From Flavihumibacter soli (GTDB lineage: Bacteria; Bacteroidota; Bacteroidia; Sphingobacteriales; Sphingobacteriaceae): DNA of 64,000 bases. Positions 51,806 through 57,693 of this stretch are shown piece by piece. The stretch's first letter is position 1. Each line of letters opens with the position of its first letter. The translations under genes were made by a program, and so were the position numbers. The stretch spans positions 1-64,000 of the forward strand of contig NZ_JAAFZB010000091.1 of NCBI RefSeq assembly GCF_010692725.1, read 5' to 3'. Below the pieces are notes generated by a model. It did not search any database, was not told the DNA's origin, and saw only the letters and a list, made by a program, of their open reading frames with translations.

Positions 51806-52423
51806 TTATTTATCAACGATTACGTAAGATCCTTTAGCTCCCGGGATAGAACCGCTAACTACTATTAGATTTTGTTCCGGATATACTTTCAGAACTTCAA
51901 GGTTTTGGATCTTTACTCGATCACCACCTGTACGTCCTGCCATGCGCATTCCTTTGAATACACGTGAAGGCCATGAAGAAGCTCCTAATGAACCCGGCGC
52001 TCTCAAACGATTATGCTGACCGTGAGTTTGACCACCCACACCACCAAAACCATGGCGCTTTACAACACCCTGAAAACCTTTACCTTTTGATGTACCAACG
52101 ACATCAACGAAGTCGCCTTCGGCGAAAATCTCAACGGTAACGGTATCACCAAGGCTTTTCTCATCTTCAAACGTCTTAAACTCCACAAGCTTGCGCTTTG
52201 GAGTAGTGTTTGCTTTTGCGAAATGTCCCTTCAGTGGTCCGGATGTGTTTTTCTCTTTCTTTTCGTCGAAAGCTAACTGAACAGCTGCGTAGCCGTCCTG
52301 ATCAACGGTGCGTAGTTGGGTAACTACACAAGGCCCAGCCTCGATCACTGTACAGGGAATATTTTTCCCGTCAGTGTCGAAAATGCTGGTCATTCCTACT
52401 TTTTTTCCAATAATTCCTGACAT
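51806..52423 (-). CDS. rplC: 50S ribosomal protein L3
   Basis: A 205-residue L3 (E. coli 209): [19 protein letters not shown], then the long extension [58 protein letters not shown] that reaches the peptidyl-transferase centre. It is the first gene of the operon here, because rpsJ, which normally precedes it, lies about 5 kb away with the str genes. Confidence 0.97.
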
Positions 52424-52530: not shown

Positions 52531-52784
52531 CAGTTAGCGAGTTATTTTTAAAATAAATGCCATTTTGACCGCTAAATTTTTCGGAGAATACCCGCTTGTC
52601 ACAGGGTATTAGTGGCCGGGCCTGTTTGATCATGCCACTGAGGAAGGATCTAAAAGTCCTGCAAAAATCGAAAACATTTTTAATTCGCGTCGCTTTTTCC
52701 TAAAAGAAACCCAAATTTTGTGATTTCATTACAATAAATGAGAATGGCAGCGGTTAAATGATTAACTTATCAATCACCCTTATT

Positions 52785-53396
52785 ATGAATAAACAGTTAT
52801 TTACTTTCTTGTTGCTCCTATTATTTCTCCTTCCAGGTACAACGTTACTGAAGGCTCAGGATACCTTAACTTCTGCGGATAAAAGCCTGGCCGGGCAATA
52901 CCGGGAAATCATCCAGAAGTCTAAGAATAACGATCAGGGCTTCAAAATTGTTAATCCTGCCAGGCTCTCTGATTTTAATAAGAATTTTTCTGATTCACTC
53001 AGGCAGACACGTAGCAGGCTTACCGAAGCTCAGAACAAAATTGCTTCGCAAACCAAAACCATTAATGCACTTCAGGCGGACCTAGCAGGCAAGGATAAGA
53101 GTCTGACCGAATCCCGTTCCCTGGTTGATGGTATTAACCTTCTTGGTATTGTCGTAAGCAAGTCCACTTATCACTGGATCATGTGGGGGCTGGTAATACT
53201 TTTAGGGGCCGTCCTGGCATTCGTTGTCTTCCGGTCCGGAGGTTACCGCAGGGAAGCACGCTACCGGACAAAACTTTTCTCCGAACTGTCCGATGAGTTC
53301 CAGCAATTCAAAACCAAATCGAATGACAAAGAAAAGAGACTGGCGCGGGAACTTCAGACCGAAAAGAACAGGGTGGACGAGTTATTAAAACGGTAG
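52785..53396 (+). CDS. Coiled-coil membrane protein of unknown function
   Basis: A 203-residue protein. A signal peptide or anchor ends near TLLKAQ (residue about 25). A helical, heptad-like segment follows (DSLRQTRSRLTEAQNKIASQTKTINALQADL). One transmembrane helix lies at about 126-147 (YHWIMWGLVILLGAVLAFVV), then a second charged coiled coil runs to the end. I believe similar proteins in this phylum are often annotated with an RNA-methyltransferase name, but no SAM motif is present here. It lies in the segment that separates rpsJ from rplC. Start chosen at the ATG that begins the hydrophobic signal. Function unknown. Confidence 0.7.
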   Translation: MNKQLFTFLLLLLFLLPGTTLLKAQDTLTSADKSLAGQYREIIQKSKNNDQGFKIVNPARLSDFNKNFSDSLRQTRSRLTEAQNKIASQTKTINALQADLAGKDKSLTESRSLVDGINLLGIVVSKSTYHWIMWGLVILLGAVLAFVVFRSGGYRREARYRTKLFSELSDEFQQFKTKSNDKEKRLARELQTEKNRVDELLKR

Positions 53397-53549: not shown

Positions 53550-54086
53550 ATGAAAACGATACATGGATTATTACTAGCTGCTACTATGACTACAGCTTTT
53601 GCCGCCTGTAACAACGACCGTACTGCGGACTCAGATGCCAACTCAGATACGGAAATGACATCAAACGGTACTACAGCCTCCGTGGTTGAGCCAGGTACTT
53701 ACGTTGACCTCAACACGGGCAAGGAAGTTTATATCATCCGGGACGAGACCACAGGTTATGCCACTGATTCAATCGCTAAAGTGCCTGTAGAGTTCTATGT
53801 AAATACTTCAACCAGCGATACCCTGTTCAGAACCGGACAAGTGGTAAACAATATGCTGGTACAGGAAGAGGGCAAATGGAAGCTGGATGACACCAAAGTT
53901 AAGGTAGATGGCGACGAGATTAAGATCAAAGACGGCGATTCGAAAGTAAAGATCGACGGTGAAGATTCGAAGGTGAAGGATGGTGACTATAAGAAAAAAG
54001 TAGACGGTGATGAAGTGAAAATCAAAGACGGTGATTCTAAAACCAAAATTGAAGACGGTGAAGTGAAAAAGAAAACAGATAATTAA
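53550..54086 (+). CDS. Lipoprotein with charged C-terminal repeats, unknown function
   Basis: A 178-residue protein with a lipoprotein signal ending FAAC (cysteine 20). A Ser/Thr/Asp/Asn linker covers about 21-45. A small domain follows (YVDLNTGKEVYIIRDETTG, KVPVEFYVNTSTSDTLF). From about residue 115 a tail repeats units such as DGDEIKIKDGDSKVKI and VDGDEVKIKDGDSKTKI, alternating Lys and Asp/Gly in a possible beta pattern. No family recognised. It is followed by a strong terminator. Codon use looks similar to its neighbours. Confidence 0.75.
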   Translation: MKTIHGLLLAATMTTAFAACNNDRTADSDANSDTEMTSNGTTASVVEPGTYVDLNTGKEVYIIRDETTGYATDSIAKVPVEFYVNTSTSDTLFRTGQVVNNMLVQEEGKWKLDDTKVKVDGDEIKIKDGDSKVKIDGEDSKVKDGDYKKKVDGDEVKIKDGDSKTKIEDGEVKKKTDN

Positions 54087-54341: not shown

Positions 54342-55829
54342 ATGCGCTTCATTTTGACGCTTTCTCTTCTTGTTTTCGCGCTGGACAATATTCAGGGACA
54401 GCCGCTTGCCTTAACAAAGGAACAGGCAACTGAAGATTTCAATTGGTTGCGGTTTGCGTTAGAGTATGTACATCCAAGATTGTACAAGTATGATGACAAG
54501 AGAACTGTGGATGCACGGTTTGATAGCCTGAGTAGACAAATTAACAATGAAATCTCGGGATTAGATTTTCTCGCTCTTGTAAGTAAGACCAACGCCACGG
54601 TCCGTTGCGGACACCTGTATACTATTCCCCAGGAACAATTGGCAAAGGAAATTTTGGAGAAAAAAGTATTGCCTTTTCATATCAAAACATTGGAGGATAA
54701 ATTTTATATCCTAAATGATTGCAGCAATTTTTCAATCCCAAACGGCTCTCGGATTTTATCCATCAATGGCAAAAGCGACAAAGAAATATTTAATACGATA
54801 ATACAGGGAATAGCTTCAGATGGATATATCCAAACCAGGAAGCTAAGATTGATGGAGAGATATTTCAATTACCTGTTTCATGGATTTAACCTGTACTATC
54901 ACCTTCATGTTGACAGGGGTAATACCTTTAAGATCGAATACATAGAGTATGGAACAAATAAGGAAAAAGCAATCAAGGTAAACGGTATCTCAATTGATGA
55001 GCGACAAAAGTTATTACTGAAAAAATACTCCGTTGACGAACAGATATGGTTTAAAACGTCCTCACCAAAATTTGAAATTAACAAACAAAATGATTTCGCA
55101 TCACTGACAGTCTCCCGGTCATTTTATGACCAAACCATTGACCCGAATTTTGATTCACTACTCAATTCAGCTTTCTACAGAATAAAAAATGAAAAGATTA
55201 ATAACCTCATTCTTGATTTAAGAAATAATGAAGGCGGTGACGAGCATCAGCAAAGAGAGTTGATCTCGTATTTGTATAACAAGCCATTTAGACTCTACCA
55301 GAACATTTTACTGAGTCATTTAGATTTTCGACCACTAAAAAATGTCATCATAGAAAGAGACACATCAAATCTCTTTTTCAACAATGACGATGAATATATG
55401 CGAAGAATCAATGATAATTTATGGATTAACAATTATGAATACAGCGATAACCTTATATTGAAACAGCCAAAGGACAATGCTTTCACAGGTAAAATATATG
55501 TGCTAATGAATGGCATCACATTTTCAAGTGCTGCTGCTCTGGTTTCTGATTTAAAGAAGACCACGGATGCAATTTTCATCGGCGAGGAAGCAGGAGGAGC
55601 ATATGAGGGCCCCACTGGCGGAGACAACATCGTCATCCAACTGCCGAACAGCAAAATAATGGTTCGAATTTCTCCAAACATCCAGATTGGATATATGTAT
55701 CAGAAACATCCGATCGGACGCGGGGTTCTGCCAACACATCCAATTAAGTATACAATCAGAGACGTTGTGGAAGGCAAGGATCTGGAAATAGAACTGGCAA
55801 GAACCCTGATCCAGCGAAAAAAGTTTTAA
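54342..55829 (+). CDS. Secreted S41-family peptidase
   Basis: A 495-residue protein with a signal peptide (to about residue 20, DNIQGQ). An N-terminal helical part includes FALEYVHPRLYKYD and a S41 C-terminal-processing-like catalytic domain at about 240-460 shows INNLILDLRNNEGGDEHQ and IYVLMNGITFSSAAALVSDLK. The catalytic serine is in FSSAA and GEEAGGAYEGPTGGD follows. No clear PDZ domain is visible. The gene looks visibly more AT-rich than its neighbours. It is flanked by terminators. Peptide-degrading role is inferred from the family. Confidence 0.85.
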   Translation: MRFILTLSLLVFALDNIQGQPLALTKEQATEDFNWLRFALEYVHPRLYKYDDKRTVDARFDSLSRQINNEISGLDFLALVSKTNATVRCGHLYTIPQEQLAKEILEKKVLPFHIKTLEDKFYILNDCSNFSIPNGSRILSINGKSDKEIFNTIIQGIASDGYIQTRKLRLMERYFNYLFHGFNLYYHLHVDRGNTFKIEYIEYGTNKEKAIKVNGISIDERQKLLLKKYSVDEQIWFKTSSPKFEINKQNDFASLTVSRSFYDQTIDPNFDSLLNSAFYRIKNEKINNLILDLRNNEGGDEHQQRELISYLYNKPFRLYQNILLSHLDFRPLKNVIIERDTSNLFFNNDDEYMRRINDNLWINNYEYSDNLILKQPKDNAFTGKIYVLMNGITFSSAAALVSDLKKTTDAIFIGEEAGGAYEGPTGGDNIVIQLPNSKIMVRISPNIQIGYMYQKHPIGRGVLPTHPIKYTIRDVVEGKDLEIELARTLIQRKKF

Positions 55830-55872
55830 ATGACAGTTCGCAGAACCTTGAACTTCCCCTCATTATAAATAA

Positions 55873-55901
55873 AATACCTCTCCTGTAATAGAAGAGGTAT
55901 T
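55873..55901. terminator. Bidirectional terminator between the S41 and prephenate dehydrogenase genes
   Basis: Perfect 9-bp stem AATACCTCT (55873-55881) / AGAGGTATT (55893-55901), followed by CTTATTTTC on the plus strand and by a T-rich tract on the minus. Confidence 0.75.
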
Positions 55902-55913
55902 CTTATTTTCAAT

Positions 55914-57173
55914 CTATTCCACCTGCAGCCGGCGAATCAATTCAGCGCTCTTCTCTCTACCATGAACAAGGCGGTCTGCAAAGAATTCCTTTGTTTGATC
56001 GAAGTGTTGCTTATATCCTTCTATGTCTCCGTAAAATATGATGGATGACCATTCGCGAACCGCCGAATGGAACTCCAGGTCATCATTGCGGATACTTTTA
56101 TCAAACAGAGCCGTTTCAATTGACTCTTCCAACAGATCTTCATTTTTAAATAAGTACTCAGCAATTCCAAGTCGCAGCCTAAAAGGAGGAGTTTGACAAA
56201 TCAGATTATCGTAGGGGTTCACACCCAAATGAGCCCAGGCATCAACCATACTCAACAAGCTCAGGTGCGAATTAGGCTTACCATGCCCGGATTGACCGGA
56301 AAGTGAAAACTCTTTCATGATCTTATCGTCGAGCATCAAAGGCACGCGGCTTTCATGAAACACAAACTCCCTTGCTTTGTACAAGCGCTCACGAAACTCG
56401 GTTTCTTCCTCTTTGATCATCATTTTAAAGAGGTCTGATTCAGACTGTGCATACCGTTTAACATGCAGGCGCGCATGCGGGTTAAGTATGGCAAGGCCAC
56501 TATAGATATGAGATTTATAGCTGAAGATCCTGAGCGTAGTTAATATTTTAACATTATCTATACCGCCTACATAAGAAGCATTCTCCCATGGGAAGAAGCC
56601 TGCACCTTTCCACGCGGTGCCCATACTTTCGAACCCAACATGAGTAACTGCCTGTGTATCGGCCACTATCTTATCATGCTCCTGGTAATCCGTTATCTCT
56701 ACAATATCCGATCCTAATGATGCCAGGACATCAGTCATCCGCTGATAAGCCTCATTACTCGTCCTGTGCGGAATAACAATCAGCTTTTGTCCACTCGGAT
56801 CAAAACCAGGCCCATGAAGAGAGTGACAGGTTATAATGTGAACATCCGACGGTAAGTATTGCTCAAACGCTTTGATCTCCGGATGTTTCACAGAGGTTTG
56901 GCCAGCCACGATGGCGCCATACTTCGTGGATGCACCATACAACTGAACCACCTGCGAAATCCTCTCCGCTTCAACGGAGTAAAAGATAATATCACATCGT
57001 CGCGATACTTCTTTGCCGTCTGCCAGCAACGTAACGTCTAAAGGACCAAGGGTGGCTTCCAGCAGTTCGCGGTGCTGGGGCAGGTCAGAGCCGAAAACGG
57101 GATATCCAGCTTTAGCGAAAGCTTTTGCATAAAGAAGGCCCATATCACCTAGGCCGATAATGCCTATATTCAT
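55914..57173 (-). CDS. Prephenate dehydrogenase, fungal TYR1-like
   Basis: A 419-residue protein. The NAD(P)-binding motif IGIIGLGDMGLLYAKAF starts at residue 3 and SLHGP is near residue 120. A TADTQAVTH-type motif (as VADTQAVTHVGFESMGTAW) lies near 180. The second half has NPHARLHVKRYAQSESDLFKMMI, PNSHLSLLSMVDAWAHLGVNPYDNLICQTPPFRLRLG and DDLEFHSAVREWSSI. These blocks match yeast Tyr1 as I recall it, far more closely than E. coli TyrA. It would convert prephenate to 4-hydroxyphenylpyruvate for tyrosine synthesis. The start is taken at ATG 57173, not at 57209. Confidence 0.85.
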   Translation of the reverse strand: MNIGIIGLGDMGLLYAKAFAKAGYPVFGSDLPQHRELLEATLGPLDVTLLADGKEVSRRCDIIFYSVEAERISQVVQLYGASTKYGAIVAGQTSVKHPEIKAFEQYLPSDVHIITCHSLHGPGFDPSGQKLIVIPHRTSNEAYQRMTDVLASLGSDIVEITDYQEHDKIVADTQAVTHVGFESMGTAWKGAGFFPWENASYVGGIDNVKILTTLRIFSYKSHIYSGLAILNPHARLHVKRYAQSESDLFKMMIKEEETEFRERLYKAREFVFHESRVPLMLDDKIMKEFSLSGQSGHGKPNSHLSLLSMVDAWAHLGVNPYDNLICQTPPFRLRLGIAEYLFKNEDLLEESIETALFDKSIRNDDLEFHSAVREWSSIIFYGDIEGYKQHFDQTKEFFADRLVHGREKSAELIRRLQVE

Positions 57174-57320
57174 TCTGCTAAGATAAGATGAGTTTAGAGA
57201 ACCGGCCACAGTTTAATGTCTTTGCCGGATTGATTACGGGGGAAATAATCTTCCTGGGGCAAAGGGAAATAATTTTAGAGGATTAAATAGTTAAGCTCAT
57301 CAAGTTGCACCTACCACCTA

Positions 57321-57360
57321 AAAAAACAAAAAATCCATTCAGGAAAAACCTGAATGGATT
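57321..57360 (-). terminator. Terminator after rpsJ
   Basis: On the minus strand a perfect 12-bp stem (AATCCATTCAGG / CCTGAATGGATT, 57332-57343 and 57349-57360) with a 5-nt loop, followed by a T-rich tract. It closes the str operon, so rpsJ is not co-transcribed with rplC. Confidence 0.88.
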
Positions 57361-57387
57361 CGAAATTTTATCAAAAAAAAATCCTGA

Positions 57388-57693
57388 TTAAACTTTGATC
57401 TCTACTTCTACTCCGCTTGGCAATTCAAGCTTCATTAAGGCATCAACAGTTTTAGAGTTAGAACTGTAGATATCTAACAAGCGCTTGTAAGCACACAACT
57501 GGAATTGCTCACGCGCTTTTTTGTTCACGTGCGGTGAACGTAAAACTGTGTAGATCTTCTTTTCAGTTGGCAATGGAATTGGTCCACTTACTACCGCGCC
57601 TGTAGGCTTAACGGTTTTCACGATTTTCTCAGCAGATTTATCTACCAGGTTATAATCGTAAGATTTTAATTTGATTCTGATACGTTGGCTCAT
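57388..57693 (-). CDS. rpsJ: 30S ribosomal protein S10
   Basis: A 101-residue S10 (E. coli 103): [58 protein letters not shown]. It is normally followed by rplC. Here it ends the str operon after fusA, with a terminator behind it and about 5 kb of unrelated genes before rplC. Confidence 0.98.

Follow-up and report, generated by a model that had tools for sequence, protein, structure and literature searches.

A predicted Tyr1-type prephenate dehydrogenase gene at the S10–L3 junction of Sphingobacteriaceae, with relatives in yeast and DPANN archaea

The gene and its locus

The window, a 64,000-nt stretch of Flavihumibacter soli DNA, contains a gene for a predicted Tyr1-type prephenate dehydrogenase, placed where the str and S10 clusters join, between rpsJ and rplC (Table 1). 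The frame is open over exactly the listed interval of the minus strand and comprises 419 codons and a stop. The ORF tool extends it up to a GTG at 57209; the start is the ATG of 57173 in all relatives. The GC content of the gene is 0.46 versus 0.436 for the window, a composition that is not foreign, and a recent acquisition was rejected on this ground. Contamination or assembly error was rejected as well, given the complete genome, the location within a ribosomal cluster, and the orthologues found in 62 of the sampled Sphingobacteriaceae.

Table 1. Features of the rpsJ–rplC slot in the window and of the Tyr1-type protein
Feature	Position	Strand	Remarks
rplC (ribosomal protein L3)	51806..52423	-	downstream flank of the slot
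Conserved neighbour	52758..53396	+	about 200 aa, signal-peptide-like start; no Pfam match
Lipoprotein-like ORF	53550-54086		tail of short acidic/lysine repeats (KVKIDGEDSKVKDGD...)
S41-family peptidase	54342-55829		between the conserved neighbour and the Tyr1-type gene
Intrinsic-terminator-like hairpin	55871..55903	-	directly 3′ of the stop of the Tyr1-type gene; -17.7 kcal/mol, z -5.1
Tyr1-type prephenate dehydrogenase gene (predicted)	55914..57173	-	419 aa; ORF, motifs, alignment, structure model
Intrinsic-terminator-like hairpin with T run	57331..57361	-	gap between rpsJ and the gene; -20.2 kcal/mol, z -4.4
rpsJ (ribosomal protein S10)	57388..57693	-	upstream flank of the slot
Rossmann glycine motif	near residues 4-12		of the 419-aa protein
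Ser94 and His117	residues 94 and 117		Ser94 in GQTSVK, His117 in CHSLHGP
HDKIVADTQAVTH	residues 166-178		of the Tyr1-type protein

Hairpins with T-rich tails lie on both sides of the gene, which is therefore probably its own transcription unit, outside the str operon mRNA. Co-transcription with rpsJ is unlikely, because a strong hairpin followed by a T run separates the two genes.

The S10–L3 position is common to at least eight genera, and the slot holds the gene in G000, G002, G062, G014, G001, G011, G041, G018, G108, G013 and G022, the stretch examined stopping short of L3 in G014, G041 and G022. In most relatives, the opposite-strand neighbour accompanies the gene in the slot. In three genomes (G050, G100 and G071), the neighbour is kept in the slot and the Tyr1-type gene is gone, while in two others (G120 and G552) the slot holds the neighbour alone and the Tyr1-type gene lies elsewhere in the genome. 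The G552 sequence groups with the genus of the window, not with the other members of its own genus (g14), a placement suggestive of transfer within Sphingobacteriaceae.

The protein encoded by the conserved neighbour looks secreted and is conserved at the rpsJ–rplC junction across Sphingobacteriaceae. The window additionally carries a lipoprotein-like ORF and an S41-family peptidase gene, the latter not found in the S10–L3 slot of the relatives examined.

Protein, active site and probable place in tyrosine synthesis

The sequence-only reading had listed a series of motifs shared with yeast Tyr1, and all of them are found in the protein (IGLGDMGLLYA, SLHGP, ADTQAVTH, NPHA, PNSHLSLL, GVNPYDNLIC, and DLEF followed by REWSS). 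It had also described the protein as matching yeast Tyr1 over almost its full length and as unlike the usual short bacterial TyrA, and the second description holds, as does the first provided that the yeast sequence used is right. For the comparison with Saccharomyces cerevisiae Tyr1 we used a provisional sequence, its 452 aa agreeing with the known length. BLASTP aligns the window protein with residues 16–437 of this provisional sequence, with 201 identities in 423 columns (48%, E 2e-138). No NCBIfam prephenate dehydrogenase model reaches its cut-off on the window protein; all score far below, the best being NF006411 with 90 bits versus a cut-off of 464. The Pfam PDH_N model gives 23.6 bits versus a gathering score of 26.5, a cut-off just passed by some Tyr1-type orthologues within Sphingobacteriaceae. 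With no fitting NCBIfam model and a PDH_N score below gathering, annotation by models only could call the organism a tyrosine auxotroph. By its sequence, we assign the window protein to the Tyr1-type enzymes, a known family that has an unusual three-domain distribution.

The AlphaFold2 model of the protein, computed from a 25-row alignment, has a TyrA fold, with a pLDDT of 91.4 and a pTM of 0.88. Each of its ten best structural matches in the PDB is a prephenate or an arogenate dehydrogenase (Z 20.8–22.8); these matches cover mostly residues 1–280, the remainder of the model forming a helical extension. A PDB search by sequence returned no close relative of the window protein, and matched soybean PDH1 and Sinorhizobium cyclohexadienyl dehydrogenase weakly. 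An aspartate, D30, ends the second strand both in the window protein and in the provisional yeast Tyr1 sequence, so the sequence does not decide between NAD and NADP. Residues Ser94 and His117 are invariant in the alignment of relatives and align with Ser101 and His124 of soybean PDH1, the catalytic residues of that enzyme (PMC5681985). At the position of residue 222 of soybean PDH1, an acidic residue gives arogenate preference and characterises the arogenate-specific TyrA of clade I (PMC5681985). The stretch of the window protein aligned with this position, RIFSYKSH, has no Asp or Glu, the exact column being uncertain owing to a local gap, and would fit prephenate as the substrate.

The genome (4.44 Mb, 100% complete) contains one copy of the Tyr1-type gene. 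A PDH_N search, positive in all 14 control genomes, returned from this genome only the Tyr1-type gene and a weak match of about 283 aa, both scoring below the cut-off; the check for a second tyrA that the sequence-only reading had proposed thus found none. Elsewhere in the genome lies a run of pathway genes, aroB, pheA, a DAHP synthase/chorismate mutase fusion, aroA and aroC, in which pheA, encoding prephenate dehydratase, is located away from the Tyr1-type gene, and from which tyrA is absent. The presence of this run indicates that prephenate is made and that phenylalanine can be made, and no candidate other than the Tyr1-type gene was found for the branch to tyrosine. As the sole prephenate dehydrogenase candidate in a complete genome with a tyrA-free cluster, the Tyr1-type protein very probably performs the step from prephenate to hydroxyphenylpyruvate. 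Specifically, the enzyme would be monofunctional, with an N-terminal Rossmann domain that binds NAD(P)+, and would oxidatively decarboxylate prephenate to 4-hydroxyphenylpyruvate, which an aminotransferase would then convert to tyrosine.

Three genomes of the window's genus (G067, G042 and G056) have neither a Tyr1-type gene nor a TyrA over the cut-off. They may be tyrosine auxotrophs or users of phenylalanine hydroxylase, a tyrosine route in some bacteria according to the GapMind study, which used fitness data to report on how a Pedobacter strain makes amino acids (PMC7311316).

Distribution across three domains and possible origin

Full-length Tyr1-type relatives, 60–78% identical to the window protein, are present in 62 of 121 sampled Sphingobacteriaceae genomes. 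An ordinary TyrA, counted as a protein of about 280 aa with more than 98 bits to PDH_N, is present in 36; 23 genomes have neither type, and none has both (Fisher p 2e-15, a value inflated by kinship). Among 395 Bacteroidota genomes sampled across the phylum, full-length matches occur only in Sphingobacteriaceae, a family-limited distribution which indicates that the gene was acquired. On a ribosomal-protein species tree, built by a quick method, the Tyr1 label needs about 10 changes, with the TyrA-bearing genera g5 and g8 basal and the TyrA-bearing genera g4, g16, g17, g18 and g20 nested inside.

The case for a single entry rests on the common position and on the one gene clade; given the roughly 10 label changes, it would require numerous losses or a time when genomes carried both genes. 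A single gain with a phase of coexistence and subsequent differential loss fits the species tree, the one clade and the common position; in the nested TyrA-bearing genera, either TyrA persisted beside the Tyr1 type until the two were sorted, or it came back later. Judged from these sequences, the gene probably entered once from outside Bacteroidota and displaced TyrA. One copy would have entered an ancestor within Sphingobacteriaceae, in or next to the rpsJ–rplC junction, and the incoming gene would have displaced the ordinary TyrA of about 280 aa; afterwards its inheritance would have been largely vertical, apart from losses and some transfers between members of the family. Plasmid- or virus-borne spread was also considered and set aside, there being no plasmid match and only weak Rossmann-fold matches on viral contigs.

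Beyond Bacteroidota, GTDB genomes were scanned and 259 relatives obtained, which were ordered by their similarity to the provisional yeast sequence; the best 80 comprise six from DPANN archaea (L090, L100, L102, L110, L114 and L120) and otherwise proteins from Sphingobacteriaceae or Bacteroidetes MAGs. Further bacterial groups may be represented in the 179 relatives beyond the best 80. The DPANN proteins are 48–50% identical to the provisional yeast Tyr1 and 60–67% identical to the window protein (48–49% and 61–67% for the six), and PDH_N matches no other gene in the genomes of the six. Neighbours in these and other DPANN loci include genes for type II methionine aminopeptidase, DNA polymerase II small subunit, TFIIB, aIF2-gamma, S6e and EF1-alpha, which speaks against stray bacterial contigs. 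Binning errors were rejected for L110, L100, L120, L238, L240, L243 and L244, all of which have archaeal genes beside the Tyr1-type gene; for L299 (Pacearchaeota, G600), an archaeal XerA-like recombinase gene adjoining the gene is weaker evidence of a genuine contig. Profile searches in two archaeal phyla gave matches above 500 bits in 6 of 327 and 2 of 245 genomes, within a graded series of DPANN relatives from 700 down to about 180 bits. DPANN carriers of the gene or of intermediates include G600–G605, G629, G694, G825, G837, G866, G912, G1023 and G1146. Chorismate synthase is missing from 14 of the 15 DPANN carriers searched, too many for assembly gaps alone, and the enzyme thus seems detached there from de novo synthesis; these archaea would either obtain prephenate from partners or use the enzyme on another substrate.

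A gene for a small Lrp/AsnC-family regulator adjoins the Tyr1-type gene in three separate DPANN loci (L114:7441-7893, L240:9013-9462 and L241:8282-8752). In two others (L243:5363-8651 and L244:2730-5874), the Tyr1-type gene has EF1-alpha and rpsJ of the archaeal str cluster as divergently oriented neighbours, and in Sphingobacteriaceae it comes right after rpsJ; this proximity may be coincidence or a trace of transfer. G694 carries, besides its 514-bit relative, a second and very divergent one (175 bits; L236:4591-5900, L183), which forms a long-branched subfamily with the form of G837.

We built trees with C20 mixture models, with yeast represented by the single provisional sequence, which has a long branch. 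The Sphingobacteriaceae sequences form one clade in two trees (94/100 and 100/100) and are joined with yeast and the DPANN set of high similarity at 99/99 and 100/98, while the DPANN intermediates L181, L182, L208 and L209 and the PRK08655-like rows branch outside the joined clade. Placement within ordinary bacterial TyrA, which had been named as the outcome that would speak against the Tyr1 assignment, did not occur, in a tree that itself holds no ordinary TyrA. AU tests of the order of yeast, DPANN and Sphingobacteriaceae rejected none of four arrangements, namely yeast with Sphingobacteriaceae (p 0.165), DPANN monophyletic (p 0.194), Sphingobacteriaceae outside (p 0.358), and yeast outside (p 0.447).

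The distribution calls for inter-domain transfer, with direction and partners left unsettled by the AU tests; the donor could have been fungi, DPANN archaea or an unsampled lineage. The sequence-only reading had suggested an ancient exchange between fungi and Bacteroidota. What stands of that reading is a Tyr1-type protein that is the only prephenate dehydrogenase of its genome and whose distribution indicates acquisition, while the exchange itself, with DPANN at 60–67% versus yeast at 48%, DPANN as close to yeast (48–50%) as the bacterial proteins are, and the order unsettled, is neither shown nor excluded. A direct passage of TYR1 between a fungus and an ancestral sphingobacterium, in one direction or the other, followed by its transfer to DPANN, would account for the 44–48% identity of the yeast (provisional sequence) and bacterial proteins over the full length and for the non-rejection of a yeast–Sphingobacteriaceae clade that leaves out DPANN; soils are inhabited by both fungi and Sphingobacteriaceae. 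We nevertheless regard it as unlikely, since the DPANN proteins are closer than yeast to the bacterial ones and the best trees put DPANN between or around yeast and the bacteria, with L181, L182, L208 and L209 outside all. Somewhat better favoured, though still tentative, is the idea that DPANN archaea, or their archaeal hosts, were a reservoir from which Sphingobacteriaceae and a fungal lineage drew the gene independently. The graded DPANN diversity, the DPANN identity of the deepest branches (those below the 99/99 or 100/98 node) and the archaeal neighbours argue for such a reservoir, but the gene is very sparse in these archaea, the missing chorismate synthase is expected of recipients and not of donors, a single DPANN clade is not rejected, and the rooting rests on long branches. 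The more specific proposal that the fungal and Sphingobacteriaceae enzymes came by separate inter-domain transfers from a DPANN-associated enzyme, with DPANN running that enzyme as an isolated last step on prephenate from their partners, is to our mind rather doubtful.

The biochemical assignment has its own competitor, namely a TyrA-fold oxidoreductase acting on another substrate, with tyrosine made by a different route, for example through phenylalanine hydroxylase. Such a substrate, or imported prephenate, might explain the DPANN carriers that mostly lack chorismate synthase, and some close relatives of the window genome do have neither Tyr1 type nor TyrA. We hold this to be highly improbable, because the gene strictly excludes TyrA across the family, sits in a genome whose chorismate/prephenate pathway is complete, and encodes a protein that conserves the Ser/His pair and is 48% identical to an enzyme of known function (the provisional yeast sequence). 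Taken together, the evidence gives us good confidence in the joint reading of a monofunctional Tyr1-type prephenate dehydrogenase that would have entered once from outside, displaced TyrA, and since been inherited mostly vertically.

Relation to known TyrA enzymes

In earlier work, fungal TyrA shares a clade with sequences of some archaea, of gamma-proteobacteria and of Chloroflexi (Schenck et al. 2017, PMC5681985), and yeast TyrA forms a cohesive cluster; the B. thetaiotaomicron tyrA is listed in an aromatic operon (Song et al. 2005, PMC1173090). Our literature search, of partial coverage and hence weak evidence, did not turn up a description of Tyr1-type proteins from Sphingobacteriaceae or from DPANN archaea. 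New here are the close DPANN relatives on genuine contigs and the deeper-branching intermediates. What makes the finding interesting is the history of displacement together with the link to DPANN. For a core amino-acid step, a large group of common bacteria, among them Mucilaginibacter, Pedobacter and Daejeonella, appears to rely on a yeast-type enzyme, and the displacement of TyrA is traceable genome by genome, as a clean cross-domain replacement of a core metabolic gene. In addition, the DPANN relatives are concrete candidate sources for the origin of fungal TYR1, a separate group among TyrA proteins, and make the history wider than a simple swap between fungus and bacterium.

The ordinary TyrA of Sphingobacteriaceae (NF006307/PRK08507) belongs to the same fold family, presumably carries out the same metabolic step, and fills this role in sister genera; it is of a different, shorter subfamily, never found in one genome with the Tyr1 type, and its gene adjoins an aminotransferase gene in 3 of 4 genomes inspected. 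The PRK08655-type prephenate dehydrogenase (NF006411) matches residues 5–285 far below its family cut-off, leaving the C-terminal region unmatched. Soybean PDH1 (5whx/5t9e) and the Sinorhizobium cyclohexadienyl dehydrogenase (4wji) superimpose with Z 21.6–22.8 over 243–271 residues and have the catalytic Ser/His in common with the window protein, but are only 18–20% identical to it and lack its helical C-terminal part beyond about residue 280. The DPANN proteins (L090, L100, L102, L110, L114, L120 and L243–L245) share its length and motifs at the identity given above, and differ in that their carriers are mostly without chorismate synthase and their genes are flanked by archaeal informational genes. 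Yeast Tyr1, the NADP+-dependent prephenate dehydrogenase of the fungal TyrA group, is, in the provisional sequence, collinear with the window protein over its whole length, with the same motifs and a common C-terminal region that is absent from ordinary TyrA. Compared with it, the window protein lacks the yeast-type N-terminal extension and has a shorter loop near residue 296, and its gene has a bacterial host and a place at the S10–L3 junction.
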